A program made the translations under genes and the position numbers. A model generated the notes under the pieces. It worked only from the letters and a program-made list of their open reading frames with translations. It did no database searches and was not told the DNA's origin. Source: Mucilaginibacter psychrotolerans (lineage in GTDB: Bacteria > Bacteroidota > Bacteroidia > Sphingobacteriales > Sphingobacteriaceae). Taken from it: a stretch of 64,000 nucleotides of DNA. Positions 39,943 to 46,425 of the stretch are shown here, piece by piece. Where the stretch lies: positions 1-64,000 of the forward strand of contig NZ_SOZE01000024.1 of NCBI RefSeq assembly GCF_004519315.1, in the 5' to 3' direction. Position 1 is the stretch's first letter; every line of letters starts with the position of its first letter.

Positions 39943-40497
39943 ATGGCCATACAGGCAGAAGACGAAGAGATTCTCAGTAAGTTTAGGGAAGATAAAACCC
40001 GCAACGAGGCATTCAACATGCTGCTGAAGAAGTATCAGCAAAAAATATACTGGCACGTGCGCCGTATGGTGATAGACCACGACGATGCCGACGACCTTAC
40101 GCAGGACGTTTTTATTAAAGTGTGGAAAAACCTGCCGGGCTTTCGTAACGATGCGCAGTTATACACCTGGATGTACCGCATTGCCACCAACGAGTGCATC
40201 ACCTTTTTAAATAAAAAGAAGCAAAAGAACAATATTTCGCTGGATGATGTGGATTACGAGTTGGCGGATACCCTATCAAGCTCTGACCAGTTCACGGGCG
40301 ACCAGATACAGCGCAAACTGCAGGAAGCCATACTTACCCTGCCCGATAAACAACGCCTTGTGTTTAACATGAAGTACTTCGACGATATGAAGTACGAGGA
40401 GATGAGCGAGGTGCTGGGCACCAGCGTCGGGGCGCTGAAAGCATCGTTTCACCTGGCTGTGAAAAAAATAGAGGCGTTTGTTACGAATACCGATTAA
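39943..40497 (+). CDS. ECF-type RNA polymerase sigma factor
   Basis: 184 residues. Region 2 ('DADDLTQDVFIKVWKNLPGF', about 47-66, then 'LYTWMYRIATNECITFL') and region 4 ('LPDKQRLVFNMKYFDDMKYE', followed by 'EVLGTSVGALKASFHLAVKK') are both present; no region 3 and no fused sensor. First gene of an apparent operon with the repeat membrane protein (51-base gap) and the Spy-like protein. The middle protein is the likely anti-sigma factor, so the sigma factor may respond to an envelope signal. Confidence 0.95.
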   Translation: MAIQAEDEEILSKFREDKTRNEAFNMLLKKYQQKIYWHVRRMVIDHDDADDLTQDVFIKVWKNLPGFRNDAQLYTWMYRIATNECITFLNKKKQKNNISLDDVDYELADTLSSSDQFTGDQIQRKLQEAILTLPDKQRLVFNMKYFDDMKYEEMSEVLGTSVGALKASFHLAVKKIEAFVTNTD

Positions 40498-40548
40498 TTA
40501 CTAAATTAGCATTAAACCTTTTGAAGTATTATTCATCTATAACAGCGT

Positions 40549-41565
40549 ATGGAAAGCGATATGGACAATAGGGAATGGGGGGACGAAGAAATGTCACTAA
40601 AACGGTTTACTAAAAATAACCCGTTCACGGTGCCGTCTGCCTATTTTGAAGAAGCCGGTCAGCGCATTTTATCATTGGTTAAATTAGATGAATTAAAAAG
40701 TATAGACCCGGCTAACGGTTTTACGGTACCTGCAAATTATTTTGACGAGCTTACGGGCAACGTTACCAGCAGGATAAATATAGGTGTAGAGGCAGATACA
40801 GCACACAGCGGCTTTGCTTTGCCCGCAAATTACTTTGACCAACTTACGGCAAACATTACCGGCAGGATAAACATAGGAATGGCTGAGGCTACCGAAGATA
40901 ACGGTTTTGCCCTGCCAGCAAACTATTTTGAGCAGCTGAGCAATAACATCACCAGCCGCATCAGTATTGAAGCTGAAGCTGACGAAGATATGGGCTATGC
41001 CCTGCCGGCAGGTTACTTCGACGAGTTGACCAGCAAGATAGAAAGCCGTATTGCGGTAGAAGAGCTTGCCAACAGAGAGGAGTTTTTTGCCGTGCCCGAG
41101 GGTTACTTTAACGATATGCAGCAGCAGATTGCCGCCCGCATTGCTGTTGAAGAGATACTTGCCGAAAAAACAACAGGCTTTACCGTGCCGGATAACTATT
41201 TCGATGTGCTAAATCGAAATATTCTTAACAAAACGGTAAACAAAGAGGTAGTTATCCGTAAAACCATTATCAGGAAGCTGTTCGCCAGCAATTCGTTTAA
41301 ATACGCAACTGCCGCTTGCCTGGCCTTGATGATTGGTACAGGCGTAATTCTACAGCAGAACGGTACTGTGGTTGTTGTTCCGGAAGCAGCGCATCAAAAG
41401 TCCTTGCTACACAACGAACTGTCTACCGTACCAGTTGACGAAATTAAAGATTACCTTGAACTGAACGTAGATGCCGGCGATGCAACCGGTATGATACAGG
41501 ATGATAAACAAATCAATACCAAAGCGCTCGCCGATGATCTGAGCGATTATATTGATGCTAACTAA
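40549..41565 (+). CDS. Membrane protein with seven PxxYF repeats, probable anti-sigma partner of the ECF sigma factor
   Basis: 338 residues. The N-terminal 230 residues contain seven copies of a unit whose core reads F-x-V/L-P-x-x-Y-F-D/E-x-L, starting at about 26, 58, 89, 120, 150, 180 and 211 (period 30-32). Most copies end with a helical I-x-x-R-I-x-I/V segment. Copies 2 to 4 are close in DNA sequence, suggesting recent tandem duplication. One membrane helix follows near 250-268 ('YATAACLALMIGTGVIL'), then about 70 acidic residues. With no signal peptide, the repeats should be cytoplasmic and the tail periplasmic, the topology of anti-sigma factors. No zinc-binding ZAS motif is present. 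Function is inferred from position. Confidence 0.75.
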   Translation: MESDMDNREWGDEEMSLKRFTKNNPFTVPSAYFEEAGQRILSLVKLDELKSIDPANGFTVPANYFDELTGNVTSRINIGVEADTAHSGFALPANYFDQLTANITGRINIGMAEATEDNGFALPANYFEQLSNNITSRISIEAEADEDMGYALPAGYFDELTSKIESRIAVEELANREEFFAVPEGYFNDMQQQIAARIAVEEILAEKTTGFTVPDNYFDVLNRNILNKTVNKEVVIRKTIIRKLFASNSFKYATAACLALMIGTGVILQQNGTVVVVPEAAHQKSLLHNELSTVPVDEIKDYLELNVDAGDATGMIQDDKQINTKALADDLSDYIDAN

Positions 41566-41578
41566 CGCGACACTTTTG

Positions 41579-42070
41579 ATGGCTAAATTGCTCAGATATA
41601 TTTTTATTTTATTGGTTATTGCCATTGCAACCGGCTATGAAGTATCTGCGCAGGCTACCAATTTAAAGCAAACCAATGATAACCGGCCCGCATTGCAGCC
41701 AGCTGGCCGAGCCAGGGCTAACGGCAAAAAAATAGAAGCTGCCCGCGACAAATTCCTGGCCCAGCAGCTTGATCTTACAGACGAAGAAGCCAAAGCTTTT
41801 TGGCCCCTTTATCATACCTATCAGGAAGAACTGAAAGCCGTACGCATTTTGAAAAGATTAAACAGTACCAGTTCATCAACAGGTGCTGCGCAGATAGACA
41901 AGGAATTGTATTACGATAATCAGATGCTTACCATCAAAAGGAAATATCTGGATGAATTCCTCAAGATAGTCCCTTCATCTAAAATAAGCATCCTTTACAA
42001 AAGCGAACGGGCCTTCAACGATGAAGTAATCAAGCAACTCAGCGAGCGCAGTATACGTGCCGGGAACTAG
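41579..42070 (+). CDS. Secreted Spy/CpxP-like (LTxxQ-type) protein
   Basis: 163 residues from ATG 41579, 13 bases after the previous stop (the earlier ATG 41552 overlaps that gene). A signal peptide (1-24) ends near Val-Ser-Ala-Gln. The mature helical protein contains 'AARDKFLAQQLDLTDEEAKA' and 'FWPLYHTYQEELKAV', a pattern like the Spy/CpxP/zinc-resistance-associated family, which are periplasmic chaperones or stress sensors. Third gene of the ECF sigma operon; the set looks like an envelope-stress regulon controlling itself. Confidence 0.8.
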   Translation: MAKLLRYIFILLVIAIATGYEVSAQATNLKQTNDNRPALQPAGRARANGKKIEAARDKFLAQQLDLTDEEAKAFWPLYHTYQEELKAVRILKRLNSTSSSTGAAQIDKELYYDNQMLTIKRKYLDEFLKIVPSSKISILYKSERAFNDEVIKQLSERSIRAGN

Positions 42071-42889: not shown

Positions 42890-42957
42890 GTTAATTCGCT
42901 CCCTTCCGCATCCTCTCCTGCTCCAACTCGGTACCGGTTTGGTGTTTGGTAGCAGTC
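42890..42957 (-). pseudogene. Relic of the 3-prime end of an outer-membrane receptor gene
   Basis: 68 bases matching 43974-44041 at 64 positions. On the minus strand it encodes 'TKHQTGTELEQERMRKGAN' and a TAA, the tail of the receptor whose intact gene ends at 43975. The differences are one Asp-to-Glu change, one Ala-to-Thr change, a synonymous Leu codon and TAG to TAA, as expected for a paralogue tail rather than random decay. Confidence 0.8.
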
Positions 42958-42959
42958 AA

Positions 42960-43254
42960 GGCGCGAAGTATCGCGTCTCTACGGAGAATTACGATGATTA
43001 TTGTAGAGACGCGATACATCGCGTCTCCCATAGGATGGGTCAAATGGCATTTCGTAATTTGCATCGGTAAGACGCGAAGTATCGCGTCTTACTCTACGGA
43101 GAATTACGATGATTATTGTAGAGATGCGATACATCGCGTCTCCCAAGGATGGGTCAAATGGCATTTCGTAATTTGCATCGGTAAGACGCGAAGTATCGCG
43201 TATCTACGGAGAATGATGATGGTTTTTCGTAGAGACGCGACACATCGCGTCTCC
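42960..43254. repeat. Tandem array of three REPINs
   Basis: Three copies (42960-43028, 43071-43143, 43185-43254) with a period of 111-114 bases. Each is a pair of inverted REP hairpins: GACGCGA-AGTA-TCGCGTC followed by CTAC, about 20 bases, then GTAG followed by AGACGCGA-TACA-TCGCGTCT. The conserved GTAG tetranucleotide beside the palindrome is the hallmark of RAYT-associated REPs. The spacers between copies are nearly identical (GGATGGGTCAAATGGCATTT...). The cognate transposase gene follows directly. Confidence 0.9.
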
Positions 43255-43336
43255 AGTAGGACAGGCAACCAAATTAATATACGCTCAAGAAGTTATGAGT
43301 CTCGTTTCTTCACGCAAATCCCTAAATTGCATTTCT

Positions 43337-43870
43337 ATGGACGACATCTATAAAAACAAATATCGCATTTCGCCCGCGCGATTGAAGGGCTGGGATTATG
43401 GCTCTCATGGATTATACTACATTACGATATGTACAAAAAACCGCAGCCACTATTTCGGTGAAATAGAAAAAGGAGAAAACGAAACTGCTTTCTTGAATAG
43501 AACGGAAATTGCAGATGTGGCGGAAAGCAATTGGTTTAGTATCCCTGAATTTCACCCTTATGTTGAGGTAGATTCATTTGTTTTAATGCCAAATCATTTA
43601 CATGGCATTTTATTTATCAACAGGCCAGATAAATTAACATGGTCAACCAACAAATTTGGCCCTCAATCAAAAAATTTAGCGTCGATATTGAGGGGATATA
43701 AATCATCAGTAACGCAGTACGCGAAAGAAAATGCAATAGAATTTGTTTGGCAACCCCGTTATTACGACCATATAATCAGGAATCAAAAGGAATATGAAAA
43801 TATAGTGGGGTATATTTATAATAATCCTCATAACTGGTTGCTTAACGGCGATGTTATCGAAGACATGTAA
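43337..43870 (+). CDS. REP-associated tyrosine transposase (RAYT)
   Basis: 177 residues from ATG 43337. Y1-transposase fold with the HUH motif as H87-Leu-H89 in 'DSFVLMPNHLHGI'. 'LASILRGYKSSVTQYA' and 'FVWQPRYYDHIIRN' follow, holding the candidate catalytic tyrosines (Y121 or Y142/Y143; not decided by eye). 'YENIVGYIYNNPHNW' ends the domain. RAYTs are single-copy relatives of IS200/IS605 transposases thought to mobilise REP/REPIN sequences. GTAG-headed REPs lie on both sides, supporting a self-associated unit. Its AT content is higher than that of neighbouring genes. Confidence 0.93.
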   Translation: MDDIYKNKYRISPARLKGWDYGSHGLYYITICTKNRSHYFGEIEKGENETAFLNRTEIADVAESNWFSIPEFHPYVEVDSFVLMPNHLHGILFINRPDKLTWSTNKFGPQSKNLASILRGYKSSVTQYAKENAIEFVWQPRYYDHIIRNQKEYENIVGYIYNNPHNWLLNGDVIEDM

Positions 43871-43888
43871 ATAGTGCTGCCCGGCTAA

Positions 43889-43963
43889 ATACATCGCGTC
43901 TCCCGTAAGACATGTAAGGGGCTGATATGCATTGTCAAGACGCGAAGTATCGCGTCTCTACGG
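43889..43963. repeat. REP copies downstream of the RAYT gene
   Basis: A truncated half REP (ATACATCGCGTCTCC, 43889-43903) and a complete hairpin with its tail (GACGCGA-AGTA-TCGCGTCTCTAC, about 43939-43961). These close the right side of the RAYT unit. Confidence 0.85.
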
Positions 43964-43974
43964 TGATTATTTTG

Positions 43975-46425
43975 CTAATTCGCTCCCTTCCGCATCCTGT
44001 CCTGCTCCAGCTCGGTACCGGTTTGGTGTTTGGTAGCAGCCTTCACGGTCGATTTGCCGAAACGGTAGGTAAAGGCCAGGCGGGCTATGCGTGTTTCGGG
44101 TTTGCCGTTGATGCGTAAATCGATGTTTTGGTACAGGGTGTAGGCCCTATCGCGGTTGGTGTTGAATATATCTGCCACGTTGAGGCTAAGCTTGCCGCGC
44201 TTACCAAATATGGGGGTGCTCATCCCGGCGTTAACGTAATAGTTGGGGCTAAACCTGCGAATGCCGTACTGGTTGGCCGTTTCGTAAAAGCCGGTTATCT
44301 CCAGCGCCAGGCTTTTGCTCAGGCTGATGTTTTGCGTGGTATTGAAGATGATATCGGCAGCACCTTTATCCAGGTTACCGTTTTCGGGGTAGGTAGTGTA
44401 ATGATAGTAGCCTGCGTTTACGTCAATCTCGCCCTTCCAGCATTTGGCCACAGTATAAGGCGTCATCACTTGCAGGCCTATGTCCTTTACATCGCCCAGG
44501 TTGCGCGTGGTAGTAAGGTTAACCTTGGTGGCATCGTTTTGGCTGTAGAAGGCGAAGTTAGCGTCCGTAGTTTTCCCGGCATACAACGCTATCGAAAGGC
44601 TTTGGTTATAAGTATAGGTTAAGGTGATCGTGTTGCTGTACTCGGGCTTCAGGTAGGGGTTGCCGCTCTGGAAATCGTAAGGATCTATATAATACAAAAA
44701 GGGGTTGAGGCTCTCGTAATCGGGCCTTAGAATTCCCCGCGTAAAGCTTAAGGCGTAATCGTGCTGTTCACTTTGCGCATAATGGAGCAACAGGTTGGGG
44801 AACAGCTTGAAGTAGTTGGAAACATTTATGGTGCTCATGGTAGATGCTGCGCCCATAGAACTACCCTGCGAATGGGTGTACTCTCCGCGCAGCCCGGCCA
44901 CCATATCAAATTTGCCAAAGGCCGCTGTATAGTTTAAATAACCGGCATTTACTTCTTCTTTATAAGAAAAGTTATTGCTGAAGGTAGGGTCGACCGTGTA
45001 GGCACCATTTACCAGCGGGCCGAATATAAGGTTGTTATCACTTTTAGTATGGCTAAATTTAAAGCCGATTTCCAGTTTAGATGTTTTATTGAGCGGGTTG
45101 GCATAATCCAGCATCCCCGTCCAGTTCCGGCGCTGAGATGGCGAAAGGTTCTGTAATGATTGAGGCTGGCGGTACACCGAGCCGGCTGCATCGAAAAAAG
45201 TATTATTGATGTACTCGGCCGAATGCCTGGTATAAGGCAGGTAAGTTAAACTGGCGGCTAAGGTGCGCCCCGCATCATCAAGCTTGCCGCTGTAGTTGAT
45301 ATTGTAGTTGATGTTGCGTAGGTCGCGATCCACACGGCTGTTTACCAGTATTACCGAATCAAGGTGCCCCTGGTTGGCAATTTTAAGGCTATTGTTTTTG
45401 GTGAAATTGTTATCTGTTACAAATCCATAAACCTGTACGCCGAGGGTATGGTTGGGTGCGAGCGTGAAATCGGCCCCGAGGCGGTAATTGTGGCTGTAGG
45501 TTTCCTGCTGACCGTAGTAGTTGAGGTTATAGCTGCTTAATGCGCCGGCATCATTTACGTTACGGTTGCTGGTGAAGCCCCGATAGGTTTTGTTGGCGTT
45601 GATATTATACAGGCCAAACACATTTACATACTTGCTGCGGCTGTTAAAGGTAAGGCCGGCTATGCCTTTATAAAACTTCCCGTAGCCGGCAGTTAAGTTG
45701 AAGGTGCCGTTTGTACCGATGTTCTTGCCCTTCTTCATCACGATATTGATGACCCCGCCGGCAGATGCATCGTACCTTGCCGAGCCCCCCGTGATGAGTT
45801 CGATCCGGTCTACATTGCTGCCCTGGGTGCTCCGCAGGAGTGCCGCCAGGTCGGCCCCGGTGATGTTGGTAGGGCGGCCATCTATTAGTATCAAAGCTTT
45901 TTGCCTGCCGCTGATGCTGATGTTATCGCCATCGGCAACCTTTACGCCGGGCGTTTGGGTTAAAATATCCAATACGTTCTTGCCATCGGCGGTGATGCTG
46001 GCTGCCGGGTTTACAATCGTTTTGCCCGGGCGAACCTCTACGAATGCTTTCTTGCCCACGATAGCTACTTCTTTCAGCTGAGTATCGGCCGGCTGCAGAT
46101 ATATAGGCTGTGCAGTAAGCTGCTGCCCGGCAGCTAGCTGGAACGCAGGCGAGTAAGCTTTAAGGTATCCGAGGCGGAAAGCCGCCACGATGTAGCTGCC
46201 CGATGGCACGTTGCGGAAGGTATAAGCACCTAAGTGATCAACCAGAGCCGACATTACTATCGAAGAGTCGCGTTGGTTAAGCAAAATGGCCGTAGCGGCT
46301 TCGGCAGCCGTATTATTTGGTATATATATATTACCCTTGATTGTTGCGAGCGTGGTTTGGGCGTTACAAAAACCAAAAAAGCCCGCTGTGAATACAAGCA
46401 GTAAACATCCTGTTTTAAAACTCAT
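43975..46425 (-). CDS. TonB-dependent receptor-like outer-membrane barrel protein
   Basis: 816 residues. Signal peptide 1-22 (cleavage at Cys-Asn-Ala-Gln), a carboxypeptidase-regulatory-like domain (about 28-110, 'AYTFRNVPSGSYIVAAFRLG'), a plug domain (about 125-235: 'GKNVLDILTQTPGVKVADGD', 'LILIDGRPTNI', 'IELITGGSARYDASAGGVIN') and a barrel to the end. No N-terminal TonB box is obvious and no SusD gene is adjacent. The final 68 bases are duplicated at 42890-42957, on the other side of the RAYT unit. Substrate unknown. Confidence 0.9.
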   Translation of the reverse strand: MSFKTGCLLLVFTAGFFGFCNAQTTLATIKGNIYIPNNTAAEAATAILLNQRDSSIVMSALVDHLGAYTFRNVPSGSYIVAAFRLGYLKAYSPAFQLAAGQQLTAQPIYLQPADTQLKEVAIVGKKAFVEVRPGKTIVNPAASITADGKNVLDILTQTPGVKVADGDNISISGRQKALILIDGRPTNITGADLAALLRSTQGSNVDRIELITGGSARYDASAGGVINIVMKKGKNIGTNGTFNLTAGYGKFYKGIAGLTFNSRSKYVNVFGLYNINANKTYRGFTSNRNVNDAGALSSYNLNYYGQQETYSHNYRLGADFTLAPNHTLGVQVYGFVTDNNFTKNNSLKIANQGHLDSVILVNSRVDRDLRNINYNINYSGKLDDAGRTLAASLTYLPYTRHSAEYINNTFFDAAGSVYRQPQSLQNLSPSQRRNWTGMLDYANPLNKTSKLEIGFKFSHTKSDNNLIFGPLVNGAYTVDPTFSNNFSYKEEVNAGYLNYTAAFGKFDMVAGLRGEYTHSQGSSMGAASTMSTINVSNYFKLFPNLLLHYAQSEQHDYALSFTRGILRPDYESLNPFLYYIDPYDFQSGNPYLKPEYSNTITLTYTYNQSLSIALYAGKTTDANFAFYSQNDATKVNLTTTRNLGDVKDIGLQVMTPYTVAKCWKGEIDVNAGYYHYTTYPENGNLDKGAADIIFNTTQNISLSKSLALEITGFYETANQYGIRRFSPNYYVNAGMSTPIFGKRGKLSLNVADIFNTNRDRAYTLYQNIDLRINGKPETRIARLAFTYRFGKSTVKAATKHQTGTELEQDRMRKGAN

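Follow-up and report, generated by a model that had tools for sequence, protein, structure and literature searches.

A widespread three-gene ECF sigma locus in Mucilaginibacter psychrotolerans, with a probable membrane anti-sigma factor that appears to multiply a single class I-type helix

Mucilaginibacter is a soil bacterium, and the window analysed here is a stretch of 64,000 nucleotides from M. psychrotolerans. It holds an operon of three genes on the forward strand, encoding an ECF sigma factor, a membrane protein with seven PxxYF units and a secreted helical protein (Table 1); gene order and coordinates had been given correctly in a preliminary description made from the sequence. The best named relative is M. 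pankratovii, whose repeat protein is 78% identical.

Table 1. Genes of the operon and features of the repeat protein (coordinates within the window)
Feature	Coordinates	Strand	Basis
ECF sigma factor, 184 aa (sigma2 + sigma4)	39943..40497	+	Pfam, PDB matches
Repeat protein, 338 aa, probable cognate membrane anti-sigma factor	40549..41565	+	sigma adjacency, profile homology
Unit 1 FTVPSAYFEEAGQRILSLV, divergent first unit	40624..40680	+	
Unit 2 FTVPANYFDELTGNVTSRI	40720..40776	+	
Unit 3 FALPANYFDQLTANITGRI	40813..40869	+	
Unit 4 FALPANYFEQLSNNITSRI	40906..40962	+	
Unit 5 YALPAGYFDELTSKIESRI	40996..41052	+	
Unit 6 FAVPEGYFNDMQQQIAARI	41086..41142	+	
Unit 7 FTVPDNYFDVLNRNILNKT, membrane-proximal; position matches the single unit of class I-type relatives	41179..41235	+	
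Single transmembrane helix, residues about 250-271	41296..41361	+	hydropathy
Short periplasmic tail, conserved (V/I)P.DEI..YL..N.D and conserved C-terminal end	41362..41562	+	alignments
Secreted Spy/CpxP/CnrX-like helical protein	41555..42070, alternative start 41579	+	Pfam in relatives, model fold

The sigma factor is recognised by Pfam as Sigma70_r2 (1.3e-17) and Sigma70_r4_2 (1.9e-14), and its relatives in the PDB include sigma-H (6in7, 6.9e-22), SigW (3.3e-20) and CnrH (1.2e-7). Against the NCBIfam model NF058625 (GFO_1088/PG0214 family ECF sigma) it scores 93 bits, below the curated cut-off of 130.

The repeat protein carries P-x-x-Y-F motifs at residues 29, 61, 92, 123, 153, 183 and 214, that is, with a spacing of 30-32 residues, as expected from the seven near-regular units of about 31 residues proposed earlier. 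Such an array cannot be due to chance: 20,000 shuffles of the protein gave a mean of 0.019 motifs and a maximum of 2. The longer core first suggested, F-x-V/L-P-x-x-Y-F-D/E-x-L, needs small corrections: PxxYF occurs in all seven units, but the core of unit 5 begins with Y, unit 6 has N directly behind YF, and the L three residues past F is replaced by A in unit 1 and by M in unit 6. Units 2-4, already singled out as the most alike, are pairwise 62-65% identical, against 19-54% for the remaining pairs, and Tandem Repeats Finder reports a 93-nt period across 40713-40931. The units are predicted to be cytoplasmic, again in line with the earlier placing, because they lie N-terminal to a single hydrophobic helix preceded by KTIIRKLFASNSFK; they are N-terminal of the membrane helix in all 168 homologues. 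As stated in the preliminary description, the window protein has no ZAS, FecR or RskA signature (no Pfam match to zf-HC2, FecR or RskA), and 21 aligned family members likewise gave no match to zf-HC2 or any other anti-sigma Pfam model. The family is matched by no Pfam or NCBIfam model, and no match to a known non-regulatory family turned up, although such a match had been named beforehand as one that would speak against a regulatory role.

The third open reading frame is listed from a TTG at 41552, the ATGs at 41555 and 41579 being the likelier starts; from 41555 it overlaps the end of the repeat gene. Its product has a signal peptide and no lipobox Cys. No significant Pfam match was obtained for the window protein itself, and a PDB profile search with its family retrieved neither Spy nor CnrX by sequence. 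Within the family, at E<=1, 12 of 26 members match PF13801 (Metal_resist; best 2.8e-6) and 7 of 26 match PF07813 (LTXXQ; best 6.5e-5). The predicted model (pLDDT 79) has four helices and matches CnrX chains with Foldseek probabilities of 0.66-0.90 at E >0.1 and VIA Z scores of 7.2-7.6, which is moderate for a helical protein; ZraP and CpxP are matched more weakly, and the top two rows are the Bacteroides proteins 3g6i and 3kdw. Thus, judging from the model, the third protein looks CnrX/CpxP-like, short of family membership, which agrees with its first description as a Spy/CpxP-like periplasmic protein.

The association of the three genes holds across relatives. In all 192 loci fetched at genus and family level the repeat gene directly follows a sigma gene, and in 191 a Spy-like gene comes directly after it, repeat gene and third gene being mostly no more than 20 bases apart or overlapping; at the lone exception (L048) the contig ends there. 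A profile search of the phylum led further afield within the class, to 54 more loci, and every one of them has the complete trio. Given these counts, the trio is no accident. The repeat protein was found in 94 of 101 genomes of the genus, including 80/80 near-complete congeneric genomes, and in 113 of 121 near-complete genomes of the family, covering 20 of its 22 genera. The probable three-gene switch is spread over a large part of Bacteroidota, a phylum in which many switches of this kind have lacked their partners. The concern that homologues might sit mostly away from sigma genes is not borne out, all 192 and all 54 loci examined being sigma-adjacent.

Upstream of the operon, a conserved ECF-type (autoregulatory) promoter was not seen among 111 genus-level loci. 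In five loci (L013, L056, L061, L070, L073) the sigma gene follows closely the end of an open reading frame resembling a transketolase C-terminus (..LDAEHIVAA.KKVI.RK), which suggests read-through from a housekeeping gene and not a promoter of its own.

The number of units varies considerably. Using a unit profile, 1-8 units were counted per protein in 168 distinct proteins: one unit in 2 proteins, two in 3, three in 43, four in 25, five in 22, six in 50, seven in 22 and eight in 1. On a tree of the sigma factor and the third protein this corresponds to at least 36 changes, so that the copy-number variation anticipated among relatives does exist. One array (L119) contains 3.8 copies of a 90-base unit with 93% matches, several proteins have two units more than 90% identical, and middle units resemble others of their own protein (identity 0.62) more than those of other species (0.53), while the first or last unit shares about 0.37-0.39 identity with its own middle units. 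From these changes, near-identical units and within-protein likeness it follows that arrays grow, shrink and homogenise through tandem duplication, by which expansion had indeed been proposed. The dN/dS values are 0.14-0.16 for unit cores and 0.07-0.12 for spacers; the cores are not more constrained as a whole, and their key positions are.

Some further variation has been observed in the units. Comparing 40549-41562 with L031, L002 and L128 gives a synonymous divergence of 0.70-1.07 for unit cores against a higher 1.35-2.11 for spacers, for which the units converting one another or some constraint on the nucleotide sequence itself is a possible reason. In the family f2 (L201, L202, L205, L209, L219, L244, L246), a pre-unit part LxxLSPLLxxIxKxxPF repeats together with PxxYF as a longer two-part unit; by analogy with CnrY, this part might be a sigma4-binding helix. 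In the lineage f3 (L220, L249, L256, L259), PxxYF is replaced by PxxLF/PxxMF, apparently in two units in L259.

The nature of the unit can be approached through one family (f30) from another class of the phylum, the entry point to which was two weak profile matches. At the position of the repeat gene, f30 loci encode a class I-type anti-sigma domain followed by one PxxYF unit and then a membrane helix, flanked by a sigma gene of the type seen in the trio and by a Spy-like gene; a match was found in 22 of 22 genomes. Both members tested exceed the zf-HC2 gathering threshold (37.3 and 26.1 against 22.2). Y and F are invariant in the 22 f30 proteins, which share with the repeats hydrophobic residues at +7, +11 and +15, counted from the proline. 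The domain of one of them (L267) aligns with RsiW at 1e-5, its PxxYF segment PENYFSSLVPRIRERL falling on RsiW residues APADFTANVMAKLPKEK, with few identical residues in the helix-4 part; in the PDB the f30 profile finds RsiW (2e-4) and, more weakly, 3hug, ChrR and the DdvA anti-sigma. By hhalign, the repeat family matches f30 with a probability of 96.8 and an E of 2.9e-10 over 87 columns comprising unit, membrane helix and tail, and the one-unit relatives, which have about 12-30 residues ahead of the unit, match it with 96.4 and 1.2e-9. A PDB profile search with the repeat family itself gave no anti-sigma match by sequence. Weak phylum-level profile matches outside the trio, to FecR, TonB-C and TPR proteins around the membrane helix, were discarded. 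In a quick tree with long outgroup branches, one branch separates the trio sigmas, f30 included, from FecR-linked and other ECFs.

RsiW has been solved with SigW, and its L4'-alpha4' part binds sigmaW2 (PMC5358783); a coevolution study has shown helix 4 in contact with sigma regions 2.1/2.2, the RNA-polymerase-binding face, throughout class I (PMC7406223). As far as sequence comparison can tell, the PxxYF unit is very probably the counterpart of this sigma2-binding helix 4 and not a novel motif. Regarding the other class I features, the RsiW-type context (adjoining ECF sigma, single membrane helix) is present and the helix 4 element is recognisable by hhalign and in the RsiW alignment, whereas the N-terminal three-helix bundle (zf-HC2/ZAS or zinc-less), which binds sigma4 in class I factors, has no match in the window protein. 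The repeat protein is thus very probably related to class I anti-sigma factors, with the sigma2-binding helix kept and multiplied and the zinc/three-helix domain gone; the domain composition of f30, the RsiW alignment and the hhalign link also make it very probably the cognate anti-sigma factor. We infer that the domain was lost rather than gained, because class I domains occur widely in bacteria. In several f30 proteins (L271-L280, L282, L283) the zinc ligands are gone and the anti-sigma domain and PxxYF unit are kept; these are possible intermediates.

Several known systems can be compared with this locus. With RsiW of B. subtilis it shares the pairing of an ECF sigma with a protein that crosses the membrane once, and a unit at the alpha-4 position (P-x-x-F-x-x-x-V-x-x-x-L vs P-x-x-Y-x-x-x-L-x-x-x-I), and the f30 relatives carry the whole ZAS-type class I domain of RsiW and of ChrR from R. 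sphaeroides; unlike these, the window protein has neither zinc ligands nor the three-helix bundle, and has the helix-4 element seven times. The CnrH/CnrY/CnrX system of Cupriavidus metallidurans also combines an ECF sigma, a single-pass anti-sigma (CnrY, class II) and a periplasmic sensor, with short helices in place of a folded domain, and the third protein resembles CnrX moderately in its modelled fold and also through the PF13801 matches of its relatives. However, gene order differs, CnrY has two short helices and no tandem array, and CnrX is a membrane-anchored metal sensor, whereas the third protein here has a cleavable-type signal peptide. The repeat family gave no sequence match to CnrY in the PDB search, CnrY being short and divergent. 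As for Spy, CpxP and ZraP, they are likewise small four-helix periplasmic proteins, and some relatives match their families (PF13801/PF07813), but the window protein does not do so significantly; in E. coli, Spy and CpxP are under two-component systems. Finally, Dma1/Dma2 and Reo are Bacteroides anti-sigmas of ECF factors, encoded next to the sigma gene, which span both membranes, running from the cytoplasm as far as the outer membrane, with a long tether and a C-terminal beta-barrel domain in the case of Dma (PMC13088901, PMC13114119). They share with the repeat protein the Bacteroidota membrane anti-sigma type and the gene position, but the latter ends about 67 residues past its single membrane helix and has no C-terminal domain reaching the outer membrane.

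Taking together the gene trio, the topology, the homology to a class I anti-sigma protein in unit, membrane helix and tail and the variation in unit number, all of them observed, the locus is likely to be a three-gene envelope-stress switch, with the repeat protein as anti-sigma, its alpha-4 units on sigma2, and a CnrX/CpxP-like sensor. The repeat protein would hold the ECF sigma factor at the inner membrane, each PxxYF unit forming a short amphipathic helix similar to class I helix alpha-4 and covering sigma region 2 (2.1/2.2) on the face that binds RNA polymerase. The lineage would have lost the three-helix/zinc part and multiplied the alpha-4 helix (seven copies here, 1-8 in relatives). The third protein, as a periplasmic sensor, may read out the periplasmic tail of the repeat protein, and under stress the anti-sigma would be inactivated, by conformational change or proteolysis, and the sigma released; extra units might make binding more avid, or let one anti-sigma molecule hold more sigma molecules. 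Such a working mode, modelled on RsiW/SigW and CnrY/CnrX/CnrH, is probable by analogy. The circuit of sigma, anti-sigma and periplasmic protein put forward in the preliminary description has therefore gained support from the invariant trio, the class I homology and the CnrX/CpxP-like third protein. Its further idea, that repeat number sets binding capacity, is to be taken as a conjecture, since relatives outside the family have for the most part just one or two units. On the other side, an AlphaFold model of sigma factor and repeat protein as one chain, read through in-frame intergenic stops and with an input of 30 partial rows from 19 loci, had a pLDDT of 48.5 and a pTM of 0.21 and gave no readable interface, and in 242 pairs (Neff 81) the last unit's mutual information with sigma was spread evenly, with no concentration in sigma2. 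The lack of a conserved promoter in the loci surveyed, the small number of identities in the RsiW helix-4 match, and spacers under as much constraint as the units likewise count against this reading.

The repeat protein could also act as a FecR-like regulator, whose units bind sigma and which is needed for sigma activity (as pro-sigma or activator) and not just for sequestration. Sigma adjacency and single-pass topology would be the same, and FecR proteins encoded in these genomes resemble it along the membrane-helix stretch, which accounts for their weak pick-up by the profile; however, the FecR domain (PF04773) is absent from the window protein, while the positive controls L223, L224 and L226 match it, and homology points to anti-sigmas of class I (RsiW type), whose action is inhibitory, so that this role seems improbable. 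A scaffold with several clients, in which separate units bind separate ECF sigmas and one membrane protein couples several regulons, would fit the consistently distinct first, middle and last units, but the homogenised middle units fit one client and it is always one conserved sigma that adjoins the repeat protein, making such coupling improbable as well.

It is rather unlikely, too, that sigma is bound by a single working unit, either the first or the one nearest the membrane, with the rest as spacers or neutral copies in tandem. There is one unit in the class I-type relatives, proteins outside the family have mostly one or two, and unit number changes frequently on the tree, all in favour of a single working unit; against it, P, Y and F show 98-99% conservation when every unit of the 168 proteins is counted, and the window protein agrees with its nearest relatives at 45-46 of 49 key positions. 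Within the preferred reading of an anti-sigma switch, a multivalent mode can be put forward tentatively, as a possibility we would not yet favour: each alpha-4 unit would hold one sigma (or two units clamp one), one protein would store several, and unit number would be an evolvable dial. If so, unit number, easily changed by tandem duplication, would tune the threshold and burst size of the envelope-stress response across a bacterial class.

According to a survey, only 6% of the ECF sigma factors in Bacteroidetes have class I anti-sigma domains as neighbours, compared with 32% overall, and it was left open whether another anti-sigma class acts in this group (PMC7406223). Because of this low proportion the repeat family is useful, and it offers an answer for one widespread ECF lineage, namely an anti-sigma reduced to its putative sigma2-binding helix, which was then multiplied. 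It thereby provides a testable model of anti-sigma shrinking to one helix, and its 1-8 units are a natural copy-number series for asking about the effect of valency in sigma sequestration. ECF/anti-sigma pairing itself is already known, and what is new is the proposed reduction to helix 4 and its multiplication. No published description of the repeat family was found in the literature searched, whose coverage left out most subscription journals; the EcfO-Reo and Dma papers were considered as such and set aside, since they deal with different anti-sigmas.

Immediately behind the operon, at 42892-44039, there is a palindromic repeat array of the AGACGCGAAGTATCGCGTCT type, with four direct-repeat copies and inverted pairs. 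An open reading frame inside it (43295-43870) resembles a REP-associated tyrosine transposase (LMPNHLHGIL motif), and the whole reads like a REP/RAYT-like element.
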